This document shows positions 4,543-17,980 of a stretch of 33,388 bases of DNA, one piece after another. The DNA is from Lentisphaerota bacterium. Lineage in GTDB: Bacteria > Verrucomicrobiota > Lentisphaeria > Victivallales > Victivallaceae. The stretch covers positions 1 through 33,388 of the forward strand of contig SUWL01000029.1 in the NCBI GenBank assembly GCA_015061495.1. Reading direction: 5' to 3'. The notes beneath the pieces are model-generated. The model was not told the origin of the DNA. It searched no databases and worked only from the letters and a program-made list of their open reading frames with translations. Both the position numbers and the translations under genes were made by a program. Each line of letters starts with the position of its first letter. Position 1 is the first letter of the stretch.

Positions 4543-5511
4543 TCAAGCAGAATATTTTTTTTTGATCTCCAGTAACCACTCACGCCACTGCCAAAGTTTT
4601 TCGCTGGTGTTGACACTGCAATAAAAGTTCAATAGGCCTAAACGGGATGCGAATTCTTCGTCATCGTAATAAAAGTTGCCGTTTTTAATATCCACTTCAG
4701 TGTAATGCAGCCATGTGCGGAATTCCCGGATTTTTTCTCTGGGAACGCCGACATATTCATTGACAACCAGACCGGTAACCAACTGGCGGCGATTGTTTCG
4801 GTAGAGTTTGGTCTTTGCCGGATTTAATTTCAAATGTAAGAGAGTTAAATTATGTTTGACCATTCGTAATATATCAGCTTGCAACCGGTCATCAATATCG
4901 CCGGAAAAAGTCAAATCATCAGCATATCTGGAATAACTCAAATAATGTTTTGCTGCCCATTGGCAAATAGTTTTATCTGCTTCAAACATCAAAAGATTGG
5001 AAAGCATCGGACTGGTCGGTGCCCCCTGCGGCAGATGACCATACAGGGTACAAAGACGGGAAAGCATCATGCAAATATCCGGTTCATATCCGGTATTGTT
5101 CCGGAAAAATTCAAAAACCGAACGGCTTTTCAATGAAGGGAAAAAATTCTTTATATCACAATTCAATACCACCGGTTTATTAACATGAAAAAGAGCATTG
5201 CGCCGAATGTTTTTTCCAGGGAGAAAGGCTGTGGCGCAATCGTGTACAACAAAACACGACAATATTTTCTTTTGGATTCGGCGTTGAATCTTTTTCAAAT
5301 ATGGTCGAGGAGCCTCAATATTCCGCATAGAACCGTTATTTTTTGGAATCTGGAAACATTTGTACCATACGGGAGTTTTATTAGATATGGCATATAACAA
5401 TCTGACATCCGTACACAGCAATTCTGCCAGTTCATCCACGGTGCGAATGATTGGCAAAGTTTCCATAAAGTTTATGTTGAATCCAGTCATATTGTCAAAA
5501 ATTAAAAACAT
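4543..5511 (-). CDS. Retron-type reverse transcriptase
   Basis: From the ATG at 5511 the protein is 322 aa, a normal length for a retron RT; the open frame continues upstream but runs into the structured RNA. Visible motifs: NALFH at 105-109 (retron NAxxH, region X), first catalytic Asp in NCDIKNFF (about 119), LPQGAPTSP at 160-168, the active site YADD at 196-199, and VTG at 245-247 (retron region Y). No maturase or endonuclease domain of group II introns follows. Such RTs extend cDNA from the 2'-OH of a guanosine in the adjacent ncRNA to make msDNA, usually as part of an anti-phage system. The chosen ATG lies within the a2 repeat, with GAGAG just upstream. Confidence 0.92.
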   Translation of the reverse strand: MFLIFDNMTGFNINFMETLPIIRTVDELAELLCTDVRLLYAISNKTPVWYKCFQIPKNNGSMRNIEAPRPYLKKIQRRIQKKILSCFVVHDCATAFLPGKNIRRNALFHVNKPVVLNCDIKNFFPSLKSRSVFEFFRNNTGYEPDICMMLSRLCTLYGHLPQGAPTSPMLSNLLMFEADKTICQWAAKHYLSYSRYADDLTFSGDIDDRLQADILRMVKHNLTLLHLKLNPAKTKLYRNNRRQLVTGLVVNEYVGVPREKIREFRTWLHYTEVDIKNGNFYYDDEEFASRLGLLNFYCSVNTSEKLWQWREWLLEIKKKYSA

Positions 5512-5827
5512 AACTCTCTCTATCACTTGGAACTCATTTCGCAAAAGCTTTTGCGGATGAGTTGTGCCGGGGCTGTGGAATCGCCAGTAACGGGCAATGC
5601 TTTTAGTGTATTTTGCTACGCGACAGCGTAGTCGCATACACCAAAAAGCGTTGAACCGTACTGACGAACCGCATGCCCGGTGCAAACCGCCGCAAGGGGC
5701 GGATGCGTATAGCGGAAAAATCTGCATTTTTCCGCGACGGAACAGGTTTCCCTTTTTGAAACGGCGACATCGCCGCTCCCGCTGTATTGTTGAACAATCC
5801 AGCCTGAAACTGATAAAGAGAGTTATG
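5509..5827 (-). ncRNA. Retron ncRNA (msr-msd) bounded by a1/a2 inverted repeats
   Basis: Read on the minus strand, CATAACTCTCTTTATCA (5827-5811, a1) is complementary to 5525-5509 (a2) at 16 of 17 positions. This is the hallmark arrangement upstream of a retron RT, and a2 overlaps the RT start codon. Inside are several strong hairpins: 5762-5775 (CGGCGA/TCGCCG), 5712-5735 (9 bp, 6-nt loop), 5606-5641 (GTGTAT/ATACAC enclosing GCTACGC/GCGTAG) and 5531-5563 (AACTCAT plus CGCAAAAG arms). The a2-proximal hairpin is a good msd stem candidate. At about 319 nt it is longer than many described retron RNAs. The msr/msd border and branching guanosine cannot be fixed from sequence alone. Confidence 0.8.
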
Positions 5828-5841
5828 AAAAATCTTTACGT

Positions 5842-6069
5842 TTACGGCAGTTTGTGCCAGCGTTTGTAAGCCGGACAAGCCCGGTTGGTGGGAGCCTGAC
5901 TGGTATTCATCAAAGCTCCGGCACACTTGGGCTGCGGGCAATATTGAGCCTGAACATACATCAGTTTGGCATTCTGAAAATCCAGACTCCGTTCCCCGCC
6001 CCAATACTCACAGCTCGCACAAATCGCCTGTTTCCACTGAAACTCCGGTATCGGTGTTTTCTGTACCAT
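5842..6069 (-). CDS. Small Cys-rich protein, probable metal-binding
   Basis: This 75-aa protein has a CASC pair near residues 17-20 (CxxC) and further cysteines in YCPQPKC and ACPAY, enough for a zinc site. No family recognised. GAGGCAGAG upstream of the ATG overlaps the stop of the 82-aa gene 12 bases before, so the two are probably co-translated. Its stop lies about 15 bases before the retron a1 repeat. That makes it either the gene preceding the retron or an accessory member of it; the sequence does not decide. Confidence 0.65.
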   Translation of the reverse strand: MVQKTPIPEFQWKQAICASCEYWGGERSLDFQNAKLMYVQAQYCPQPKCAGALMNTSQAPTNRACPAYKRWHKLP

Positions 6070-6081
6070 AATTACTCTGCC

Positions 6082-6330
6082 TCAAAAATCATCTTGCCAC
6101 AATTCGATAGCCTTTTTTACTCCTTTTTTGAAAATATCCTCATCACATTTTTTTGCAAGACCATCATAATCATTCTTTGTAAATGTTCTTCCATGCGAAT
6201 CAGTGAAACCACCTTTGCCAGCTTTTTCTCCGGCATTATTTAATGCCTGTTTTGCAGCAAGAGTAATTGCACCTCCTACCAATGAAGCCGTGCCAAGTCC
6301 AACTGCAGCAACTTTTTTCAAAATGCTCAT
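6082..6330 (-). CDS. Small protein with Gly/Ala-rich hydrophobic N-terminus
   Basis: This 82-aa protein starts MSILKKVAAVG, followed by a hydrophobic glycine/alanine stretch (about 7-30) that could be one TM or membrane-inserting helix. A polar C-terminal half follows with a GGFTDSHGRTFTKND segment and a single Cys. AAAGGA precedes the ATG at 6330. It lies 36 bases after the amidohydrolase stop and 12 bases before the Cys-rich gene. Not recognised. A small membrane-active protein next to a retron is an effector candidate, but it could equally belong to the upstream peptide operon. Confidence 0.65.
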   Translation of the reverse strand: MSILKKVAAVGLGTASLVGGAITLAAKQALNNAGEKAGKGGFTDSHGRTFTKNDYDGLAKKCDEDIFKKGVKKAIELWQDDF

Positions 6331-6366: not shown

Positions 6367-7128
6367 TTATGGTGTGTTTAAAAAACTCATCATATTTAAA
6401 TGAAAAAACTTATCTAATCCTTGAGATAACTCTTTAGATATTTGATTGATTCTATGCTGAACATATGAACAACAATTATCATTAAAAAACGACTCAGGGG
6501 CAGGCATATCTGAACCAAACATAATTCTGTTTGATATATTCGGGATACTCATTAAAAATTTTATATTTTCTATTGGCGAAAATGAAATATCCGTGTAAAC
6601 ATTGTCATACCTATCCAGCATCTTCATTGCACTTTCCAGTGGTCTGGCATGTGCGATATTTATTTTTACCTCGCTGTATTTTTGGTAATATTTCTCATAT
6701 ATATGCGGTGGATAATCATCATCACAATGCAAAATAACAGCCATTTCCCTTTCCTTGGCAATGTCCATTATTCTTTCCAACTTTTTGGGGTGTTTAATCC
6801 ACTCACACTCCCTGCTATGCAATTTCAGCCCTTTAAAATCAATTTTATCAATTTGGGAAAACTTATCATCTTGTAAGAATTTTTTTTGTGTCACCCAGTA
6901 AAATGCAAACGCATTACCTTTCCCGAAATACAGCATTTGTCTTATCAGATCATTTTCTACCTCCTCATTAAAATTTGCATCCAATGTATATGCTGATGAA
7001 AAAATATATTTTTTTATTCCAATATTGCTTATATAGCTATATATCACCTCAGGAGAGTAATCTAAATAAGCTTGCTCTGTTTGTGATGGGAAAATTCCGA
7101 TATGAATGTGAGCATCATTGATAATCAT
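6367..7128 (-). CDS. Amidohydrolase-family metal-dependent hydrolase (TIM barrel)
   Basis: This 253-aa protein opens with NDAHIHIG, the HxH metal motif at residues 7 and 9. Further metal or catalytic ligands follow: His in VILHCDDD, His in NIAHARPLE and Asp in MFGSDMPA. This order matches the amidohydrolase-2 (PF04909-type) barrel, which hydrolyses or decarboxylates small substrates. Its ATG at 7128 overlaps the stop of the preceding radical SAM gene (ATGA), so it is the last gene of the peptide operon and translationally coupled to it. A role in peptide tailoring, cofactor supply or immunity is inference. It is shorter than many family members but contains all the expected motif blocks. Confidence 0.85.
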   Translation of the reverse strand: MIINDAHIHIGIFPSQTEQAYLDYSPEVIYSYISNIGIKKYIFSSAYTLDANFNEEVENDLIRQMLYFGKGNAFAFYWVTQKKFLQDDKFSQIDKIDFKGLKLHSRECEWIKHPKKLERIMDIAKEREMAVILHCDDDYPPHIYEKYYQKYSEVKINIAHARPLESAMKMLDRYDNVYTDISFSPIENIKFLMSIPNISNRIMFGSDMPAPESFFNDNCCSYVQHRINQISKELSQGLDKFFHLNMMSFLNTP

Positions 7129-8558
7129 TGCAAATTCTCGTGTGCAGCTCTGTATTCCTCAACTAAGCGCCTGTTTATAGAAGCAATATTGCAGTAATGT
7201 TCATTGGGTTGTAGCATATTCTTGTTTTCATTAAAATTTCTAACAAGACATATTGAGCAGAAGTTTCTGTTTTCACATTTAACACACTTTTCTAAATTTT
7301 TCCTTTTTAAACTTCTAAGGTATTTCAGTTGCGGAGAATTCTCCCAAACTTCGCGTAATGTCTGTTTGTTACAATTTCCAACAGGATAATTTTGGAAACC
7401 CGCACATGGATAATATTCCCCGTTAGAATTCAAACAAATCGAACTGATCCCTGCGCCGCAAATTTGTTCTTCTTCCCAATCAGCAGAAGGAATTGCTATT
7501 TTTTCAAATTCAGTCTGAGATAAGATCCTTGATGCATATCGATAACTGTGATCTAACATATCACGCATCAAATACTCAGCCTCTCTTAAACTCAATCGCT
7601 GAGTCAAATTATCTGTTGAATGGTCAGATCTTGCCATTAAAATAAAATCTGTGTAAGCTGGAATATTGTGCTGCGCAGCGAATTGAAGCACATCCTTGTA
7701 TCCGGCATAATTTTTTTTCATTGTTGGACAAGATATTTGTATGGGAATCTTATTAGCATGTAACTCCAATAAAGTATGAATGGTCTGCTTGAATGAACCG
7801 GGAATCTGCGTAATAGAGTCATGAATTTCAGAATCCATACTATAAAGGGAAACTTGCAACGAAGCTATATTAATTTCTTTTAAAATGGAAATCATTTCAG
7901 GGTCGCAACAAGTTAAATTGGACATTAAAGAAATAGACAAATCTTTTTGTCTGGCATATTTTAAAATTTTAACAAAATCTGGGTGTAACATACATTCTCC
8001 ACCAGAGAAACAAATTTTTAATCCGCCCAATTCGGAAAATTCATCAATGACGGAAAATATCTTGCTTGTTTTCATGTGTGCGTTTTTGTGTTCAGGAATA
8101 TAACAATGAATGCAACGCTCCGTACAAGCAGATGTAATATCGCAGTGCAGTACAAAAGCTGTCGGATGTGCATTGAAATATTGTTGCATTACCTCCTGGG
8201 ATGTATATTCTAAGTTATGTAAATTATAATTAAAATCACCATCAGCTGACATACTGCCAGTCTCATTTGATTTTTCCAATATTATATCATCCGGAACATC
8301 GCTTGCCACTATCACCCCAGATTTAATCAATGGTTCAAATATAGCAAAAAAATCCGAGGCGACCTCACTTTTATCCACATCATATTTCTCAATTATGTTA
8401 TTTATAATGTCATCTTTTGAACATGGAATTCTACCAATTTTTTCAAAAAAAACTCCAGCATCTTGAAACACATAATCTGAAGAAGTACGCTGGTTAAAAA
8501 TATAGGTATAGTCCCCATATTGACGAACAAAAGTGTCTTTAGGCAGCGCAATAAACAT
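7125..8558 (-). CDS. Radical SAM/SPASM peptide maturase with PqqD-like N-terminus
   Basis: This 477-aa protein has three parts. Residues 1-90 resemble the PqqD-like RiPP recognition element (start FIALPKDTFVRQYGDYTYIF). A radical SAM core follows with CTERCIHC (C145, C149, C152) and the SAM-binding region FSGGECMLHPDF. The C-terminal SPASM domain has many cysteines (CGAG, YYPCAG, KCVKCENRNFCSICLV, HYC) for auxiliary Fe-S clusters. Such enzymes form thioether or C-C crosslinks in ribosomal peptides. AAGGGG lies before the ATG. It is clearly paralogous to the gene 21 bases upstream (shared SNLTCC and EIHD blocks) and overlaps the amidohydrolase by 4 bases. Confidence 0.92.
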   Translation of the reverse strand: MFIALPKDTFVRQYGDYTYIFNQRTSSDYVFQDAGVFFEKIGRIPCSKDDIINNIIEKYDVDKSEVASDFFAIFEPLIKSGVIVASDVPDDIILEKSNETGSMSADGDFNYNLHNLEYTSQEVMQQYFNAHPTAFVLHCDITSACTERCIHCYIPEHKNAHMKTSKIFSVIDEFSELGGLKICFSGGECMLHPDFVKILKYARQKDLSISLMSNLTCCDPEMISILKEINIASLQVSLYSMDSEIHDSITQIPGSFKQTIHTLLELHANKIPIQISCPTMKKNYAGYKDVLQFAAQHNIPAYTDFILMARSDHSTDNLTQRLSLREAEYLMRDMLDHSYRYASRILSQTEFEKIAIPSADWEEEQICGAGISSICLNSNGEYYPCAGFQNYPVGNCNKQTLREVWENSPQLKYLRSLKRKNLEKCVKCENRNFCSICLVRNFNENKNMLQPNEHYCNIASINRRLVEEYRAAHENLQ

Positions 8559-8579
8559 AATATTCCCCTTTTATTGTAA

Positions 8580-9932
8580 TTATAATACAGTTTCATTCAT
8601 AATTGAAGCAATTTTACATTGTTGTGCAATTTGTCCAGTCAAGGATCCAGTTTCATTAAAGTTTTTTAATGGACAAATTTTGCAAAAACGCTTATTGGGA
8701 CAAATTATACATTTTTCAAATTCTTTCCAGCGAAGATTTCTCAAATATTTTAGTTTTTCAGATTCGTTCCATATCTTTTGCAAAGAATCTACATAACAAT
8801 TTCCCAACACATAACCACTTGCATTATTACAAGGATAAAAATCCCCATTCGCAGCAACGCATATTTTGGACGTTCCTACTTCACATATAACATCGTTTTC
8901 ATTTATTTTTTCATCTGCTTGCGACTTTGCATCTTTAATCTCCTGATAAAAGTATTTATGTATAAACTCAAACAATTGCTCATCATTGATTCTATTCTCT
9001 AAATTATCAGTACAATGATTGCTTTGTGCCATCAATTGAAAATCTATATTGACTCTTACATTTTTCTTTTTGCCAAAATCGACGACGCTACTTATTGTCG
9101 AATAATTTTGTCGCATCAATGGACAAGATATTTGCAATGGCACATTAAGGTTATAAAGTTTTTCAAATGCATTTAATGTTCTGGCACAAGAACCTTTAAG
9201 TCCGGTAATCGCATCGTGAATCTCATGCGACAAGGAATAAACAGAGGTTTGCACAAGTGCAACATTGTTACTTTTCAATGCCGCACATATTTCTTCTGAA
9301 CAGCATGTTAAATTACTAAGCACAGTGATTATAAGATCTTTTTTTCTTGCATATTCCAAAATCTCAATAAAATCAGGATGCAGCATACATTCTCCGCCGC
9401 TGAATTTAACCTTCAACCCGCCATTTAGTGCAAATTCATCCAATAAGCTGAATAAAATATTTTTATCTAAAAATGAATTAGTGTATTCAGGTATATAACA
9501 GTGAATACAACGTTCATTGCAAGAGTCCGTCAAATCAATAGATAATTCAAAAACAGTTGGATTTTCATAAAAAATCCTTTCAACAATCCTAGAGGGTGAT
9601 TCTATTTGTAGAGATTGTTCATCTGAGGCAAAATAATTATCAGGGAATCTCTGATTATTTTTTTCTTGAACTATATCTGAGACAATCATATTGGATGCCA
9701 TAAGAATATCACAAAGATCTTGCAATTCTTTATCAACAGCATCTTCTGGAAAAATTCTGTTTTCACACAATTGTTTTTTTAGCTTATCGTAAGATGTAAA
9801 TTTTCTACTAAACAGTTCTGTCAACCAGTCCGCATCTTCAAACAATAACTCGTCGTGTGTAACTTGGTTTAAAAACAAAACAAATTTTGAATATTTACGG
9901 CAAAATGCATGTGGAGACAATTTTAATTTCAT
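8580..9932 (-). CDS. Radical SAM/SPASM peptide maturase, second paralogue
   Basis: This 450-aa protein has the same layout as its neighbour: PqqD-like N-terminus (about 1-90, MKLKLSPHAFCRKYSKFVLF), radical SAM motif CNERCIHC (C138, C142, C145), FSGGECMLHPDF, and a SPASM tail (CEVG, YPCNN, KCIICPNKRFCKICPLKNF, QQC). It is the first maturase after the precursor. A perfect hairpin at 9944-9976 ends only 11 bases before its ATG and no clear Shine-Dalgarno is visible, so its translation is probably weak compared with the precursor. Two paralogous maturases suggest two modification steps or a heterodimeric enzyme; the sequence does not tell which. Confidence 0.92.
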   Translation of the reverse strand: MKLKLSPHAFCRKYSKFVLFLNQVTHDELLFEDADWLTELFSRKFTSYDKLKKQLCENRIFPEDAVDKELQDLCDILMASNMIVSDIVQEKNNQRFPDNYFASDEQSLQIESPSRIVERIFYENPTVFELSIDLTDSCNERCIHCYIPEYTNSFLDKNILFSLLDEFALNGGLKVKFSGGECMLHPDFIEILEYARKKDLIITVLSNLTCCSEEICAALKSNNVALVQTSVYSLSHEIHDAITGLKGSCARTLNAFEKLYNLNVPLQISCPLMRQNYSTISSVVDFGKKKNVRVNIDFQLMAQSNHCTDNLENRINDEQLFEFIHKYFYQEIKDAKSQADEKINENDVICEVGTSKICVAANGDFYPCNNASGYVLGNCYVDSLQKIWNESEKLKYLRNLRWKEFEKCIICPNKRFCKICPLKNFNETGSLTGQIAQQCKIASIMNETVL

Positions 9933-9943
9933 ATTCGCTATAG

Positions 9944-9976
9944 TTGTTCTGAAGAGAAATATTCTCTTCAGAACAA
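9944..9976 (-). promoter_or_regulatory. Perfect 15-bp hairpin between precursor and maturase genes
   Basis: ttgttctgaagagaa (9944-9958) is the exact complement of 9962-9976, with a 3-base loop. It lies 11 bases after the precursor stop and 11 bases before the maturase ATG. There is no T-run, so it is more likely an mRNA-stabilising 3' hairpin or a partial transcription/translation block than a full terminator. The effect would be excess precursor over maturase, as is usual in RiPP operons. Confidence 0.75.
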
Positions 9977-9987
9977 ATTTGGGTTAA

Positions 9988-10128
9988 TTAATAGTTCAAT
10001 TCACATTGCCTGCATGGACGACAGTTGTTGAACGTTCCATAGCTGGTGTGTGAATTTGCCGGACAACCTGCCGCGAAAGATTGCTTAGGAATAGATTTCG
10101 CGACAACTTTGGGTTTTTTGTAAGCCAT
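9988..10128 (-). CDS. Probable RiPP precursor peptide, 46 aa, four Cys
   Basis: The ATG at 10128 has AAGGAAG 5-6 bases upstream and opens a 46-residue frame. The leader is short and basic (MAYKKPKVVAKSIPKQSF). The core begins around AAGC and carries Cys at 22, 36, 39 and 42 (CPAN, then NCRPCRQCELNY at the end), giving C-x13-C-x2-C-x2-C. It is the first gene before two radical SAM/SPASM maturases with PqqD-like domains, the standard place for the substrate. The pattern suggests thioether (sactipeptide- or ranthipeptide-like) crosslinks; the linkage type is not readable from sequence. A longer ORF in another frame over the same DNA (9996-10196) lacks a ribosome site. No transporter or leader protease gene is seen nearby. 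Family not recognised. Confidence 0.85.
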   Translation of the reverse strand: MAYKKPKVVAKSIPKQSFAAGCPANSHTSYGTFNNCRPCRQCELNY

Positions 10129-10233
10129 AACGACTTCCTTTCTGCTGTTAACAGCTTTGTTTCATCTTGACATTGGCACTTACCGTAAATGCACAATTCA
10201 AGCTTTTGTTAAATATTTCCTGCATATATCGAC

Positions 10234-10271
10234 AAAAAAACGTACCCCGTTTACATGACTCTGGAGGTACG
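10234..10271 (-). terminator. Intrinsic terminator upstream of the RiPP precursor
   Basis: On the minus strand CGTACCTC (10271-10264) pairs with GGGGTACG (10248-10241), one G-T pair included, across a 15-base loop. Seven T residues follow (10240-10234). It lies about 105 bases before the precursor ATG. Because its upstream arm overlaps the closing helices of the structured RNA at 10258-10374, it may be a regulated attenuator rather than a simple terminator. Confidence 0.65.
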
Positions 10272-10374
10272 CCAATACCCGTAAAACCCATGCAAACAGA
10301 GTACGTCTGTGTATGTGGACAGACGCATCCGTCAAGCAATCGGTTTCACTCGTAGTTTTGGCGTTTTCCAGAGT
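10258..10374 (-). ncRNA. Structured leader RNA, riboswitch or attenuator candidate
   Basis: Two stacked helices close a ~117-nt element: 10367-10374 with 10258-10265 (ACTCTGGA/TCCAGAGT, 8 bp) and 10358-10364 with 10269-10275 (ACGCCAA/TTGGCGT, 7 bp), separated by a 2x3 internal loop. Inside, CGTCTGT/ACAGACG (10319-10325 with 10304-10310) forms a further hairpin. The 3' strands of both closing helices share 2-3 bases each with the terminator arm at 10264-10271, so helix and terminator should compete. No known riboswitch consensus is recognised. The ligand, if any, is unknown. Confidence 0.55.
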
Positions 10375-10609
10375 AACCGTCTTGAAAGACTGCGAATTAT
10401 TTGATTTTTATGTCGTTTTGATTACAGTTGTTTTATATTTTCACCTCTCAATTTTGGTCGATTGGTTATAATTTAGCACTGCAACCGGCAAAAGTCAAAT
10501 CCACAGCTCTGTCTGCATGGGATAATCAGCCCGAAAGATTTTTTCTTTCTATCCGATTATTCGCAAACAAAATGAGAATTTGTCGCCGATTGGCAAATTT
10601 TTTCACGAT

Positions 10610-10742: not shown

Positions 10743-12761
10743 TCATTTTTTATAAGTTTCAGCTTGTTTTCTGCCCATATACCTTATTTTGCCCATAACC
10801 GGGTCGGTAAAATCTTCCTGCAATCCGATCAATTTTTCAATATCTTCTTTGTTCTGACCGCCGAATTCCTGTTTTGTCAGCACATGACGGCACAACCGTT
10901 CAAGCACCATATTAACTGCAACCATCTGCATGACCGGATCTTCAAACAGCATCCGGGAAGCGATCTCCCGCGGAGTGCCTTGTTGTGACCGCCAATATTG
11001 CTGACGTTCTCTGACCTTTGCTCCATCCGGGGTTCCCTGTAAATAAAAAAGTGTTGTCTCAAAATCTGACCAGATACGTCCGGTTCCATCAGCCCAGTGC
11101 AAAGCCTTCAATCTTTTTATTTCCGGCTCTATGGATTTTTTATCAAACATCTCTCTGGTCAGCAGCTCCTGAAAATAAGACCCCGTTAACAACCCGAATC
11201 GGTTGAAATACTCCTTTGCTCTTTCCCGGCGGTCGGTTTCAAATTCGCTCTTCCAATCCGGGAATTTGTATTCCGGAACAACTGTATTTCCGAATTCCTC
11301 CTGAGTTTTTTCCTGCTTCCGGCTCGAATATTTCACCACTCCGAAGTCCGGATCGGTGAAATCGTTTTGCAGTTCGGTTAATTTCTGCATCATTTCCACC
11401 GTTTCCAGATCAAACCCCCGGCTGATACCATGATGATAATAACGGGTAAGCACCATATTGACAGCGGCAGTTTGCATGACCGGATCACCGGCAAATATCT
11501 TTTCCCGCAATTCCGGCAGGGTATAATTTTGAGAAAGCCAGTATTGCTGACGGGATTTCAACGGAGCATCTTCCCATTTGCCGCCGACCAATGCCTGATA
11601 CAATAAACTTAATTTGCGAAACAGCTCATCATTGCCGATATTACTGCCGATCGCCCGACTGACTTCCGCAAGCATCGCTTTAGGTGAAACAAACTCCCAG
11701 CTCAACAATTCGGAGATATTTTGCCCTGACAACCGGGGCAGCACCAATCCGGCAAAACGTTTTTCCCGGTCTGCCAGAAACTCCTGTTTCCAATCCGGAA
11801 GTTTCGTCGCTGCGGCAATGGATTTTTCCAGCGACTCCTGCGGCGGTGTTGTCCCGGCACTTTTCCGGTATCCGGCACGCACCATCCAAAAAACTGCCGC
11901 TGCCAAAATCAGTATTGATCCCGCCAGAATGATTTTCAATGCCAATGGAGTTTTCGCCCGCCCCTCCGCCTTCTCGTGAGGCTCATTTTCCGGTGGCGGT
12001 TCGGGGACGCTCGCTCCGGCAATAACTTTCCGGAATTCAGCCGAGGATTTTATTTCCTGACTGCACCCGGCAAGTATCGCCCGGTTGACTTTCGGATCAA
12101 CGCTGATCGTCATTTCCGGCGGGATGGTCGGATATTCCGCCGGGGCAAGTCCGGTCAACGCACAGTAAATGACTTTACTTAAAGCATAAAAATCATCGCT
12201 CGTTTCAGCAACTCCGCCACTTTCCATCAGCCGGGGCGAAATGAACCCAGGTGAACCAACCAGCGTATGCAATCCTGCCGGTGCGATCAACCCCGCATCG
12301 GAAAGGGTAACTCTGCCGTTGACATACAAAATATTATCCGGCTTGATGTCCCGGTGAACCAGTCCGTGTTTATGCAATTCATCCAGCGCGGCAAGCAATC
12401 CATCAAGCATTTTGCTGATCTCTTTACCATCAAGTCTGCCGTATCTGTTAAGCCGGTTGGCAAGGGTATCCGGGCAATATTCTCCTTTGCCGTTATTAAA
12501 ATCATCGGCGGCATCCATCGTGTAGCAGACCAGATCATCGCTGATTTCGATGTGGCGGATTTTCAGTAAATTAGGGTGGTCGCAATCTTTGTAATTCTGC
12601 AATCCTTTGATTTCCCGTTCAGAAAACTTTTTCTTCAGGATCTTCAACGCCACCTTGCCGCCAATAGCGTTTTCAGCAAGCCACACTTCACCGTAACTGC
12701 CCTCGCCGCACTTTAAAAGCAGCGTGCAGGAACAGAGCTTATCCCCCTTATCAAATGTCAT
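10743..12761 (-). CDS. Membrane Ser/Thr protein kinase with tandem C-terminal repeats
   Basis: The ATG at 12761 (672 aa) has GGAG about 10 bases upstream; an alternative ATG at 12800 would give 685 aa (numbering used here). The kinase domain covers about 24-262: Gly-rich loop GEGSYGEV, VALK Lys53, HRDIKPDN (149-156), and DAG (168-170) in place of DFG. The activation segment is short, ending GFISPR where APE is expected. One TM helix follows at about 286-307. The remaining ~370 residues, presumably periplasmic, hold two copies (about 334-498 and 513-682) of one domain that shares PDWK-x-EF, RQQYW-x-SQ, DPVMQ-x-x-AVNMVL and LQ-x-DFTDP. That domain is not recognised. The gene overlaps the sigma factor gene by 11 bases, so the two likely act together. 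Confidence 0.9.
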   Translation of the reverse strand: MTFDKGDKLCSCTLLLKCGEGSYGEVWLAENAIGGKVALKILKKKFSEREIKGLQNYKDCDHPNLLKIRHIEISDDLVCYTMDAADDFNNGKGEYCPDTLANRLNRYGRLDGKEISKMLDGLLAALDELHKHGLVHRDIKPDNILYVNGRVTLSDAGLIAPAGLHTLVGSPGFISPRLMESGGVAETSDDFYALSKVIYCALTGLAPAEYPTIPPEMTISVDPKVNRAILAGCSQEIKSSAEFRKVIAGASVPEPPPENEPHEKAEGRAKTPLALKIILAGSILILAAAVFWMVRAGYRKSAGTTPPQESLEKSIAAATKLPDWKQEFLADREKRFAGLVLPRLSGQNISELLSWEFVSPKAMLAEVSRAIGSNIGNDELFRKLSLLYQALVGGKWEDAPLKSRQQYWLSQNYTLPELREKIFAGDPVMQTAAVNMVLTRYYHHGISRGFDLETVEMMQKLTELQNDFTDPDFGVVKYSSRKQEKTQEEFGNTVVPEYKFPDWKSEFETDRRERAKEYFNRFGLLTGSYFQELLTREMFDKKSIEPEIKRLKALHWADGTGRIWSDFETTLFYLQGTPDGAKVRERQQYWRSQQGTPREIASRMLFEDPVMQMVAVNMVLERLCRHVLTKQEFGGQNKEDIEKLIGLQEDFTDPVMGKIRYMGRKQAETYKK

Positions 12762-13356
12762 ATCTGGCAAGCTCCATTTGTAAATCGGGGTCGGCTTCAT
12801 TCATTTTCAACAGGATCTCCCGCATCATCGCAAAACACCGCTTTTTCGCCTGATAGACCTGATTAGTCGAACACTCCAGAAAGGCAGCGACTTTTTCCAC
12901 CGGACGACCTTGCACCGCATAAAGTTGGTACGCCTGAAATGTCTCCGGATTAACCCGCTTTCTCAACTCGTCTTCAGCTTCGGCAAGAATTACTTTACGC
13001 CATTCAGCCATATAAATTTTATCCAATTCAGCATCAACGGGTACAGCATTCAGTTCTCCGGAAAGTTTTTCGCGCTTTTTACGGTAATAATCAATGATTT
13101 TCCACGAAACTATCCGTCCGAGATAGGTGCGGAACTTGGCAAGCCCGGGATCGAATTTGAAAGTTTTGCTCTGTTTGAAAAAGTGCATCATCACCTGCTG
13201 ACAAATATCATCAGCATCATATTCGATGCCCTTGTATCTGGCAACAGCTTTGATGACCGGCGCATATTTGCGGTAGAATTCATCCCAGCTGATCTCATCG
13301 CCGGAAGAGATTTTTTCCAACAGCGTCTTGGAAGTGGTCGGATATTTTATTGGCAT
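12751..13356 (-). CDS. RNA polymerase sigma factor, sigma-70/ECF type
   Basis: The ATG at 13356 (201 aa) has AGGAG 9 bases upstream; the ATG at 13395 is less likely. Region 2 is visible as FYRKYAPVIKAVARYKG through DADDICQQVMMHFFKQ and FRTYLGRIVSWKIIDYYRKKRE. Region 4 is a helix-turn-helix around EKVAAFLECSTNQVYQAKKR. No anti-sigma gene follows; instead the frame overlaps a membrane Ser/Thr kinase. Phospho-control of the sigma factor by this kinase is plausible and known for related sigma-kinase pairs, but is inference here. The gene begins about 85 bases from the repeat zone at 13.45 kb. Confidence 0.9.
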   Translation of the reverse strand: MPIKYPTTSKTLLEKISSGDEISWDEFYRKYAPVIKAVARYKGIEYDADDICQQVMMHFFKQSKTFKFDPGLAKFRTYLGRIVSWKIIDYYRKKREKLSGELNAVPVDAELDKIYMAEWRKVILAEAEDELRKRVNPETFQAYQLYAVQGRPVEKVAAFLECSTNQVYQAKKRCFAMMREILLKMNEADPDLQMELARYDI

Positions 13357-13476
13357 ATGGCGTATCTCCTTATGATGAAAGATAACATACACCATGTTTC
13401 ATAAAAAAACAAATAAAAAAAACCTCTTCTTTCTCTCTCTCACTTGAAACTTCTCAAAACAGCAGTATATTATCTT

Positions 13477-14556: not shown

Positions 14557-14633
14557 GCTCTCTTAGCTCAGCTGGATAGAGCGGCTCCCTCCTAAGGAGC
14601 AGGTCGCGCGTTCGAATCGCGCAGAGAGCGCCA
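14557..14633 (+). tRNA. tRNA-Arg (anticodon CCT)
   Basis: A complete cloverleaf of 77 nt: acceptor GCTCTCT/AGAGAGC, D arm GCTC-AGCTGGATA-GAGC, anticodon stem GCTCC/GGAGC with loop CTCCTAA (anticodon CCT), T arm GCGCG-TTCGAAT-CGCGC, discriminator G and encoded CCA. It reads AGG codons. It borders the repeat zone on its 5' side; no attachment-site duplication of its 3' end was seen in the window. Confidence 0.97.
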
Positions 14634-16092: not shown

Positions 16093-17274
16093 TCATATAT
16101 TCAAAAACATCTGCTCTGCTGGAATATCAACAGAAACATTTTTACATGAGGAAATATTATCAAAGTAATTCTTTATGGTACATGCAATTGCTTTGGCTAA
16201 AAGCGGAGGAACGGCATTACCAATTTGTTGGTATTGGGACAATGATTTTTCCCAAGACATAGTTGTCCTTTTACCTTGAAAGACATACCAATCAGGGAAA
16301 GATTGTAACCGCGCTCCCTCTCTTGCAGTATAATTGCGGTCATAGAACGGATGTACAAAATTACTTTGAAAACTAGCAGGAATTGTCGGAGATGGTTTGT
16401 CGGGAAATGGTCTCATATTATTTTGAGCATATGTTTTTCCACTGATTTGTTGTGCATCTCCACGTTTTCGCTGCTTGTGTTCATCCGGAACATCTGCCAA
16501 CGATTCACCCCATTTTATGCATTTAAATCTCTCGACAAGACGTTTGGTATGACGCATCGCAATATGATTACAAACCATGTCTGTTCTCGAACGACACCAC
16601 TGTTGATATGGATTTTGAGGTTTTAGGGGATAAGCCACGTCATCCTGACCTTCTCCAGCTTGCAATACTGGCAAATCCGAAATTGCATCTGCAATGGATA
16701 TAAATCCTGACTCCTCTTTGGGCACTAATCTACTAGGGTCAAAAGGAAAATCTTTCCGTATGCCTATAAAAAACACCCGCATCCTAGATTGAGGAACACC
16801 ATAATGAGCTGCATTTAGCACCATTTGATGTATATTATAACCTATACTTGAGGCTACTATTTTTATTAAATCCTGTACAGATTCTCCCTTGCGAGTTTTT
16901 GCAGATAATATTCCGGGGACATTTTCCATCACGAAAAAATTCGGCTTAAAACTTTCTACAAATCGCATGTAGTCCATAAAAAGACTATTTCGTGGATCTT
17001 TGGGATCCCTGTTGCCCGACAATGAAAACCCCTGACATGGAGGTCCACCTATAATTCCGCATATACCTTGGGCTTCCTTAAATGTAGCAGCTGGATTTTT
17101 TATTTGCGTTATATCGCCTCTGTGAATAATTGTATTCGGATGATTATAAGCATATGTATCTGATGCCCACTCATCTTTTTCTACTGCAACGACAGAATTA
17201 TAACCCGCTATTTCAAATCCTAAACTCATTCCGCCACAACCGGCAAAAAGATCGATGATGCAATTATTTTGCAT
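16093..17274 (-). CDS. DNA (cytosine-5) methyltransferase, type II R-M system
   Basis: This 393-aa protein has the m5C methyltransferase motifs in order: I DLFAGCGGMSLGF (8-20), IV GGPPCQGFS with catalytic Cys80, VI FVMENVPG, VIII QSRMRVFFIG, a target-recognition region around 240-320, and IX/X SQYQQIGNAVPPLLAKA. It transfers methyl from SAM to C5 of cytosine in a specific site, protecting host DNA. The ATG at 17274 overlaps the stop of the endonuclease gene by 11 bases, so the pair is translationally coupled. The recognition sequence cannot be read off. The cassette is AT-rich compared with lnt/murA to its right and sits between two IS relics, which suggests horizontal acquisition. Confidence 0.95.
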   Translation of the reverse strand: MQNNCIIDLFAGCGGMSLGFEIAGYNSVVAVEKDEWASDTYAYNHPNTIIHRGDITQIKNPAATFKEAQGICGIIGGPPCQGFSLSGNRDPKDPRNSLFMDYMRFVESFKPNFFVMENVPGILSAKTRKGESVQDLIKIVASSIGYNIHQMVLNAAHYGVPQSRMRVFFIGIRKDFPFDPSRLVPKEESGFISIADAISDLPVLQAGEGQDDVAYPLKPQNPYQQWCRSRTDMVCNHIAMRHTKRLVERFKCIKWGESLADVPDEHKQRKRGDAQQISGKTYAQNNMRPFPDKPSPTIPASFQSNFVHPFYDRNYTAREGARLQSFPDWYVFQGKRTTMSWEKSLSQYQQIGNAVPPLLAKAIACTIKNYFDNISSCKNVSVDIPAEQMFLNI

Positions 17275-17980
17275 ATACTTTGAGTTCCTCTACTAGCATT
17301 TTGATCCCTCTTTCCAACGCTGACATTTCCAGAGGCTTGTAAAATTCCGGCTTATTGATCGGTTCATCCACCTTACGAACACCTTTGATCATGGTGAGAA
17401 TATTCAAGTCGACAGTATCAAAGTACGACATAATTGAATGAGTCGCAGGACAGCCAAGTGGCTTATCTGTGACCTGTTCATAATCTCCACCTAACATTGA
17501 CTCCAATTGAAATAAAAAACACTTTAAGTTGGGATAAAGAGTTTTTAAGAACATAAAATCAACCATAATATGTTTTATCATGGCATTTTCGGTATAGGCT
17601 TTACATTCGATTCCCAAAATAAATTTGCCATCAATAAAAACATGCCTATCAACAGACAGCTTATAAACAAAATCCTCAATATGGGATTCAATGTCCTTTC
17701 TCACATAATCGGGAATTCGAGTCAAATATTCAAGTTTAATCGGAATCGGGATTTTTGCGGAATTTATCTCCAAACGAGATTGTTTTTGTTCAAGTTCATC
17801 AATCCAGGCAATTTCAATCAACCGCTTTGTAATGTATTCTTGCAGTTTGCCTTTGGCTTGTCTCACAAAACCGCCATACGCTCTCTCTGTATTATCGTTT
17901 GCATCGGATTCCATGATTCCAATGGTACGATCATAATCTTGAACAAGCATCTCCAATGCTTTTCTAGTTGCATCTTTCAT
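17264..17980 (-). CDS. Probable type II restriction endonuclease (PD-(D/E)xK)
   Basis: This 238-aa protein lies directly upstream of, and overlaps, the m5C methyltransferase gene, the usual place for its endonuclease. The segment FIDGKFILGIECKAYTE (about 116-131) fits the PD-(D/E)xK nuclease core, with Asp117, Glu125 and Lys127 as likely metal ligands and general base. The N-terminal ~60 residues are helical and charged. No other nuclease motif is seen. Its ATG at 17980 lies only ~15 bases from the IS relic at 17995, so the promoter may lie inside the relic. Identification rests on the motif plus context; specificity unknown. Confidence 0.82.
   Translation of the reverse strand: MKDATRKALEMLVQDYDRTIGIMESDANDNTERAYGGFVRQAKGKLQEYITKRLIEIAWIDELEQKQSRLEINSAKIPIPIKLEYLTRIPDYVRKDIESHIEDFVYKLSVDRHVFIDGKFILGIECKAYTENAMIKHIMVDFMFLKTLYPNLKCFLFQLESMLGGDYEQVTDKPLGCPATHSIMSYFDTVDLNILTMIKGVRKVDEPINKPEFYKPLEMSALERGIKMLVEELKVYAK

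Follow-up and report, generated by a model that had tools for sequence, protein, structure and literature searches.

The assembly GCA_015061495.1 of a Lentisphaerota bacterium (2.67 Mb, about 89% complete) contains one contig of 33,388 nucleotides, SUWL01000029.1, the whole of which was analysed and is called the window here. On its reverse strand lie, in this order, a small gene for a precursor of the kind found in ribosomally synthesized and post-translationally modified peptides (RiPPs), two genes for radical S-adenosylmethionine (SAM) enzymes with SPASM domains (maturases A and B), and an amidohydrolase gene whose start overlaps the stop of the maturase B gene by 4 bases. A structured leader RNA lies 107 bases upstream of the precursor. 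These elements very probably make up a RiPP operon that belongs to an as yet unnamed family and works by the mechanism proposed below. Their positions in the window are as follows; related loci and genomes carry L and G numbers, and E stands for expectation value.

10235..10376, reverse strand: structured leader RNA with an intrinsic terminator (fold z-score, covariation, model match)
9988..10128, reverse strand: predicted 46-residue RiPP precursor, leader 1-23, core 24-46 (translation, homologous frames, ribosome site)
8580..9932, reverse strand: maturase A, radical SAM/SPASM protein of the A clade (Pfam PF04055 and PF13186; tree; alignment A4)
7125..8558, reverse strand: maturase B, weak PqqD-like N-terminus followed by radical SAM/SPASM, B clade (Pfam, tree, alignments)
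6367..7128, reverse strand: amidohydrolase of PF04909 (Pfam E 1.3e-9; alignments A3 and A7)

The precursor frame has 46 codons and encodes MAYKKPKVVAKSIPKQSFAAGCPANSHTSYGTFNNCRPCRQCELNY, with Cys at positions 22, 36, 39 and 42; the last three lie in the core, and Cys22 sits at the leader/core junction. An earlier note on this DNA had picked out the four-Cys frame and a ribosome site ahead of it, and both are real: AAAGGAAG stands upstream of the frame in that role, and homologous frames are found beside the same maturases at E values far beyond chance, mostly 1e-12 to 1e-22 in per-genome profile searches and 3e-6 for the weakest accepted. The C-terminus had been given as RPCRQC; the actual end is RPCRQCELNY. 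The longer frame that was thought to mask the gene on the same DNA does exist, as a 66-residue frame starting with TTG at 9996-10196, but its register contains at least one stop in the relatives, the rows of L062 and L020 excepted, and it is therefore not conserved.

Two tests of the frame had been set beforehand, one asking for a conserved small Cys frame near homologous maturases and the other concerning its substitution pattern. One scan of species genomes with maturase A returned 23 loci, of which 15 (L018-L032) matched over nearly the whole protein and eight (L033-L040) only partly. Every one of the 15 near-full-length loci has a small frame, or two, with a common leader; the total is 18, and each of them is preceded by a site of the AAGGA/GGAG type; no precursor was detected in the eight loci that match the maturase only partly. 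Among 38 leader pairs with at least 20 of 23 residues identical, 163 codon differences are synonymous and 66 non-synonymous, and 205 of 325 base differences fall at third positions (the pairs are not independent); this is a synonymous excess, and the decay of a non-coding stretch was not seen. As had been supposed, the precursor falls outside recognised families, in that no NCBIfam or Pfam model matches it above chance; two NCBIfam matches to precursors (E 0.12 and 0.23) were themselves taken as chance. On these comparative grounds the 46-residue frame can be regarded as confirmed as a genuine gene.

The near-constant first 23 residues have the consensus M-YKKPxxVAKSxxKxSFVAGCP and are followed by a variable, Cys-bearing tail. 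In alignment A1 (18 peptides) M1, K4, P6, A10, K11, A20, C22, P23 and C42 are invariant, and when more distant precursors are added only P6, A10, A20 and C22 stay so. The unique precursors number 34, the diverged member at L075 (precursor E 6.8e-4) being left out; for the 32 with Cys at position 22, mean column entropy is 0.75 bits over positions 1-23 versus 3.24 over positions 24-34. The congeneric loci of G005, G026 and G032 provide the closest comparison. Their B proteins are 92-93% identical, their A proteins 75-83% and their amidohydrolases 73-77%, and their leaders agree at 20-23 of 23 residues; the cores agree at 17-40% of 20-23 aligned residues. As far as sequence goes, a constant leader joined to a variable core beside a near-identical B is the signature of a RiPP precursor. 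Some loci carry two different precursors, and G032 and G108 each have two loci.

These properties bear on a reading that we consider very unlikely, namely that the peptide gives rise to a redox cofactor, like the precursors of pyrroloquinoline quinone (PQQ) and mycofactocin. A PqqD-like domain, a SPASM enzyme and a metal hydrolase do resemble the PQQ and mycofactocin gene sets. A cofactor precursor, however, would be expected to have a conserved core, which is not the case even where B is nearly identical; several loci hold two different precursors; the distribution is patchy; and the models for cofactor maturases are not reached (PqqE 67.9 and 71.4 bits of 381, mycofactocin 66.7 and 93.5 of 265). 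Because leaders are constant, cores variable and some loci endowed with two precursors, a diversified peptide product is favored over a cofactor. The patchiness emerges from several samples. Maturase is found at E<=1e-60 in 6 of 60 family genomes (G000-G059), and the same six have a precursor at E<=1e-17; a precursor search of 78 family genomes gave seven strong cases and added G108, where the maturases were then found. Precursors occur in 12 of 387 genomes of a phylum sample and, in a search of the class of G190, in 16 of 345. Of 19 stretches from that class (2-3 kb, some overlapping), 16 also hold maturase sequence, and the remaining L087, L093 and L094, the last two of them short, do not. 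To judge from these genomes, precursor and maturase are patchily distributed and travel together. Precursor-profile matches in G045 and at G108:C62 (E about 0.007) were treated as chance.

The two radical SAM/SPASM proteins that the earlier note placed downstream of the precursor are present, at 8580-9932 and 7125-8558. It had also given each of them a PqqD-like N-terminus, which is borne out weakly for window B (15.1 bits against a Pfam cut-off of 23.4) and was not reported for window A. Across the 27 maturases of alignment A6, Radical_SAM (PF04055) and SPASM (PF13186) are found in all, and a PqqD match at E<=0.1 in 20; two relatives pass the PqqD cut-off with 24.0 and 25.1 bits, and a single profile comparison of the maturases with one free-standing PqqD gave a probability of 63% and E 7e-5. 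The CxxxCxxC motif and the Cys residues of the SPASM auxiliary clusters are invariant in alignments A4, A5 and A6. The general features of radical-SAM RiPPs are thus found here, namely a precursor near a maturase with a conserved leader (15 of 15 loci) and CxxxCxxC together with the SPASM Cys.

In a maximum-likelihood tree of 37 maturases, an A clade (16) stands apart from a B clade (21) with support of 98/97. Several A and B sub-groups match, the window pairing with L065 in both, and L061 with L064 and L066; fine placement is unsure because branches are long, that of window A among them. B is the commoner protein: at L020, L069, L073, L074, L075 and apparently L095, it comes right after the precursor and no A is seen. 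A core ending in C-x2-C-x-R occurs at five of the six B-only loci versus none of 15 loci with both A and B, a count without L024, where B stands at the contig start, L026, where B is cut, and duplicate records of a locus; the Fisher p of 3e-4 treats related loci as independent, overstates the case and is indicative only. The pattern raises the possibility that the remaining core types depend on a further modification introduced by A. For thuricin CD, passages of PMC12093266 describe a complex of TrnC and TrnD, neither of which works well alone, and by analogy A and B may act as one complex.

Several findings weigh against a RiPP operon or against particular steps of one. The number of Cys residues per precursor ranges from 2 to 6 among the 34 unique precursors, and no fixed spacing of acceptors was found among them. 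Over all 276 leader pairs, non-synonymous differences (1908) exceed synonymous ones (1767). The window peptide and its nearest relative, L065, differ by 24 non-synonymous and 11 synonymous changes over 46 codons, with only 28 of 58 base differences at third positions, a weak coding signal. The frames of L070 and L074 have no clear ribosome site. The 25 best NCBIfam models for either maturase include no peptide-maturase model that attains its cut-off. Finally, no exporter was mapped in the window, and the best match in the host genome to an ATP-binding cassette (ABC) protein found beside related operons is 26% identical and non-specific.

The weak coding signal of the window and L065 pair, along with the absence of any database model covering the peptide, would fit a reading in which the 46-residue frame and its relatives arose by chance or encode a conserved peptide with a regulatory role, the maturases having some other substrate. 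We regard this as extremely unlikely, given the synonymous excess among close leaders and between the plasmid precursors described below, the ribosome sites before 18 of 18 precursors at the fifteen loci, and the co-occurrence of precursor and maturase.

The lack of a matching curated model has a different consequence. The best NCBIfam scores among those 25 models are 126.5 bits of 500 for B and 99.3 of 400 for A, and since no curated peptide-maturase model passes its cut-off, the bond type cannot be read from family membership. The best-scoring model for A is GeoRSP TIGR04303, which gives 99.3 bits for A and 92.6 for B against that cut-off of 400. One tentative alternative, well short of an even chance, is a RiPP operon with chemistry other than thioethers: carbon-carbon or ether crosslinks, epimerisation or backbone cleavage, with the Cys residues as metal ligands or in disulfides. 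The variable number and spacing of core Cys would suit it, as would the weak relationship of the maturases to the GeoRSP, NirJ2, AhbD, PqqE, AlbA, StsB and WgkB models, none at cut-off, and a set of PDB profile matches that includes SkfB, PqqE, MoaA and 5v1q (listed only as 'Radical SAM'). The best of those PDB matches, on the other hand, is the sactipeptide enzyme SkfB (E 1.1e-26), and few residues are as constant as Cys22 and a Cys close to the C-terminus. A thioether is the bond that we would single out, with a probability somewhere near one half.

Among known systems, the sactipeptides and ranthipeptides (SkfB, AlbA, RumMC, TrnC/TrnD, PapB/SCIFF) are alike in combining a radical SAM/SPASM maturase with a short Cys peptide. 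An operon with two maturases is also described for thuricin CD (PMC12093266) and for ruminococcin C (PMC8188230), which the window operon resembles in this respect. It differs from the group in its unrelated leader, its Cys spacing, its conserved amidohydrolase and its hosts, which are Lentisphaeria and Kiritimatiellae. SCIFF precursors are defined in PMC8326336 by six Cys in about 45 residues; the window peptide has four, and no precursor model is reached. The precursor of relative L068 holds six Cys and carries the leader of the window family. In the open-access literature that was searched, with subscription papers mostly outside its scope, no radical-SAM RiPP was described from Lentisphaeria or Kiritimatiellae, and no paper contained the precursor peptide strings; neither PMC9062424 nor PMC8326336 mentions names beginning with Lentisphaer or Verrucomicrobia. 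A search there for amidohydrolase with radical SAM and RiPP turned up bottromycin papers, reviews and a ribosome paper.

The amidohydrolase exceeds the gathering score of PF04909 (38.6 bits against 26.4), and its residues H7, H9, K102, H104, H134, H160 and D207 are invariant in alignments of 9 and 13 sequences (A3, A7); by analogy with the superfamily, these are read as metal-site residues. A profile search of the PDB returned only 3cjp and 3pnu. Relatives occur at 13 of the 15 relative loci, and at L026 and L032, the two without one, the contig ends inside B. Their position varies: at L020 genes intervene after B, at L024 the amidohydrolase follows the precursor and at L031 it precedes it. 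Judged by this conservation, the amidohydrolase is a third conserved enzyme of the operon. The earlier note had seen no transporter or peptidase nearby; there is indeed no ABC gene in the window, but this conserved enzyme, a candidate peptidase, lies within the very interval that the note described.

The role of the amidohydrolase is suggested by bottromycin, whose precursor has a follower and whose cluster is not known to include such a tandem radical SAM/SPASM set. Passages of PMC10885120 describe PurAH as a zinc-dependent amidohydrolase, inside the RiPP cluster, that removes the follower peptide. The likeness of the window enzyme to BotAH/PurAH is one of placement inside a RiPP cluster. Since PurAH shows that an amidohydrolase can remove part of a precursor, the window enzyme is proposed to cleave the leader or tail, perhaps at AG|CP, for which the chances seem about equal either way.

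In the leader RNA, the region 10225-10400 folds with a z-score of -5.2 relative to shuffled sequences. Helix P1 pairs 10374-10367 with 10265-10258, P2 pairs 10364-10358 with 10275-10269, and a terminator helix of 20 bp, X (10307-10288) with X' (10258-10239), precedes a run of U residues. One base belongs both to the 3' arm of P1 and to X', and the 3' arms of P1 and P2 lie inside the loop of the terminator helix. No match was found at 10235-10376 at E up to 1 among the 4227 models of Rfam 15. The equivalent place in L065 is 90% identical over 72 bases, with compensating changes in the stems, and alignment A9, which spans nine loci, shows changes in both partners at 15 of 26 pairs. The covariation score for the nine loci is 0.41 versus 0.21 in shuffles and at most 0.25 when the structure is slid, a control that leans towards the stems because they were chosen on the same nine sequences; helix 1 pairs in only 67% of the cells of A9.

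A model of this RNA, R1, scores the window at 115.9 bits, the window being a training sequence. Over 49 sources it matched 22, corresponding to 17 distinct loci, nine of them the training set. The eight outside it (L069, L020, L084, L095, L073, L031, L075 and L028) have E values from 5e-11 to 0.04, with L075 and L028 weak. Just one further match falls below E 0.05; it lies in L090, on the opposite strand of the element itself. At least 53 of 100 related genomes contain the RNA, in 1-6 copies at E<=0.01, a lower bound set by strict filters; the host genome has two. Twenty other sites precede other predicted frames, with no precursor among them, and of five proteins encoded after such sites four have Pfam matches: an SPFH/band-7 protein with zinc ribbons, a zinc ribbon protein, an AAA ATPase and a septin-like GTPase. 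The idea that the RNA is specific to RiPPs was rejected on these counts. A retron RNA identity for 10235-10376 is also unlikely: the same RNA precedes the RiPP operon elsewhere, and the window's retron-like reverse transcriptase has no relative in the other 21 mapped loci.

By analogy with known attenuators, the RNA may be a transcription attenuator in which the 3' terminator helix competes with a long hairpin. It might instead act as a small RNA in its own right or mark a mobile cassette, without switching the operon, a serious alternative to which we give a little under an even chance. Its terminator, its several copies per genome and the variety of genes downstream would all fit, as would the absence of a match at E<=1 in 27 of the 49 sources; these include L063, L064, L068, L070, L071, L072, L074 and four plasmid loci, and many are short, but several RiPP loci with upstream sequence are among them. 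Against this, all 17 matched RiPP loci (E<0.05) have the RNA in sense orientation upstream of the precursor, although nine belong to the training set, and the shared base of P1 and X' and the enclosure of the P1 and P2 3' arms in the terminator loop are attenuator-like.

Distant B-only relatives of the system are found on plasmids. Full-length comparison gives maturase B 34% identity with proteins encoded on five E. coli plasmids and one Salmonella plasmid, and 32% with one on a Photobacterium plasmid. In the two of these seven full-length records that were examined, one from E. coli and that from Photobacterium, a 38-residue frame lies just upstream of the B homologue, outside the gene tables (L102 5809-5925 and L103 5807-5923, both forward). 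The two frames encode an identical protein while differing synonymously at 17 of 39 codons, with no non-synonymous difference. Two IMG/VR contigs (L149, L150) likewise hold a B homologue with a precursor-like frame, and a third holds a weak B homologue only. The plasmid and IMG/VR loci resemble the window in that the B homologue (32-34%) comes just after a short Cys frame with the leader M-Y-KP--LA(K/Q), and they have a core GRPCNPP in common; they differ in having a single maturase. No amidohydrolase match was found in the two IMG/VR stretches, and the gene tables of the plasmid stretches, which are incomplete, list none. The precursor/radical SAM pairs of L102 and L103 lie near recombinase genes.

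A link to phages was tried and dropped: 50,697 phage records gave no maturase B match at E<=1e-15, and one exact RNA pattern had no match in viral contigs. A near-identity search of complete E. coli genomes with the plasmid locus also returned nothing, although PLSDB has five E. coli records. On the Thiodictyon plasmid NZ_CP020371.1 (L104 4674-10751), the annotated genes are a PqqD-type radical SAM protein, a radical SAM protein, an amidohydrolase, YcaO and TfuA, with an IS66 element ahead of them. This cluster shares the order of two radical SAM genes and then an amidohydrolase gene; it differs in the addition of YcaO and TfuA, and no homologous precursor was found in 11 kb.

A model for the operon can be built on what is observed, namely the precursor with its pattern of conservation, the set of enzymes, the gene overlap and a covarying RNA. 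The RNA, precursor, A, B and amidohydrolase are predicted to be transcribed as a unit, with the leader RNA gating transcription through the choice between the 3' terminator helix and the long hairpin. The basic leader of 23 residues would be bound by the PqqD-like N-termini of both maturases. A and B would then modify the variable Cys core, most likely by joining Cys sulfur to a carbon of nearby residues, as a sactionine or a non-alpha thioether. The amidohydrolase would act on the peptide afterwards, the first guess being release of the leader or tail near the AG|CP junction, and the product would presumably be secreted and have a biological role.

Each part of this system belongs to a known kind; neither the combination nor the families turned up in the sources searched. 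A broader claim would make it a new RiPP class across the phylum, with a near-invariant tag ending in AGCP, diversifying Cys cores, tandem co-evolving maturases that join a RiPP recognition element (RRE) to SPASM, a coupled amidohydrolase protease, and an unrecognised leader RNA of the terminator type that ties the operon into a regulon together with other small accessory operons; enterobacterial plasmids would have acquired B-only forms, whose peptide has escaped annotation. Taken as a whole, this claim seems to us as probable as its opposite. The 34 unique natural precursors combine one leader with very different cores and, in part, nearly identical enzymes, so that maturase promiscuity and the principles governing radical SAM crosslinks can be put to direct test. 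The amidohydrolase may supply another peptide-processing activity to set beside the bottromycin enzyme, and the leader RNA, a structured RNA of switch-like architecture with no Rfam match, is a separate finding in its own right.

Three further genes of the window have relatives beside other operons of the family.

6082..6330, reverse strand: small protein of 82 residues with a hydrophobic N-terminus, possibly accessory (52% identity to an L065 protein)
10743..12800, reverse strand: Ser/Thr kinase, possible regulator by association only (Pfam PF00069; cluster 3)
12751..13395, reverse strand: sigma factor of the extracytoplasmic function (ECF) type adjoining the kinase, possible regulator by association only (cluster 5)

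The small protein lies 3' of the amidohydrolase gene and may be accessory because its relative in L065, of 84 residues, sits between leader RNA and precursor. Across 22 mapped loci, the window included, the Ser/Thr kinase recurs in seven and the sigma factor in six, and the host genome has three members of the sigma factor family, that of the window among them; an association of this kind makes the two possible regulators. A family-9 glycosyltransferase is found at seven of the 22 loci and an ABC-transporter-like protein at four (one representative of each named by Pfam), and the window contains no member of either cluster of neighbours.

Other observations concern the flanks of the operon. 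A Cys-rich frame of 75 residues, seen by eye at 5842-6069 (reverse strand), starts MVQKTPIPEF, and a frame resembling it by eye follows the leader RNA in L143 at +256. A reverse transcriptase of the retron St85 type at 4543-5727 (reverse strand) scores 232.5 bits, below the cut-off of 235. Roughly the first 80 codons of its frame look non-coding, with hairpins visible by eye, and are possibly a retron RNA. On the other side, a tRNA-Arg gene lies at 14557-14633 (forward strand), and beside it, at 16093-17980 (reverse strand), a frame like cytosine-5 DNA methyltransferases and a partner, these two named by sight. The tRNA-Arg, the methyltransferase, the retron and the RiPP operon may together form an island of the defence type at a tRNA.

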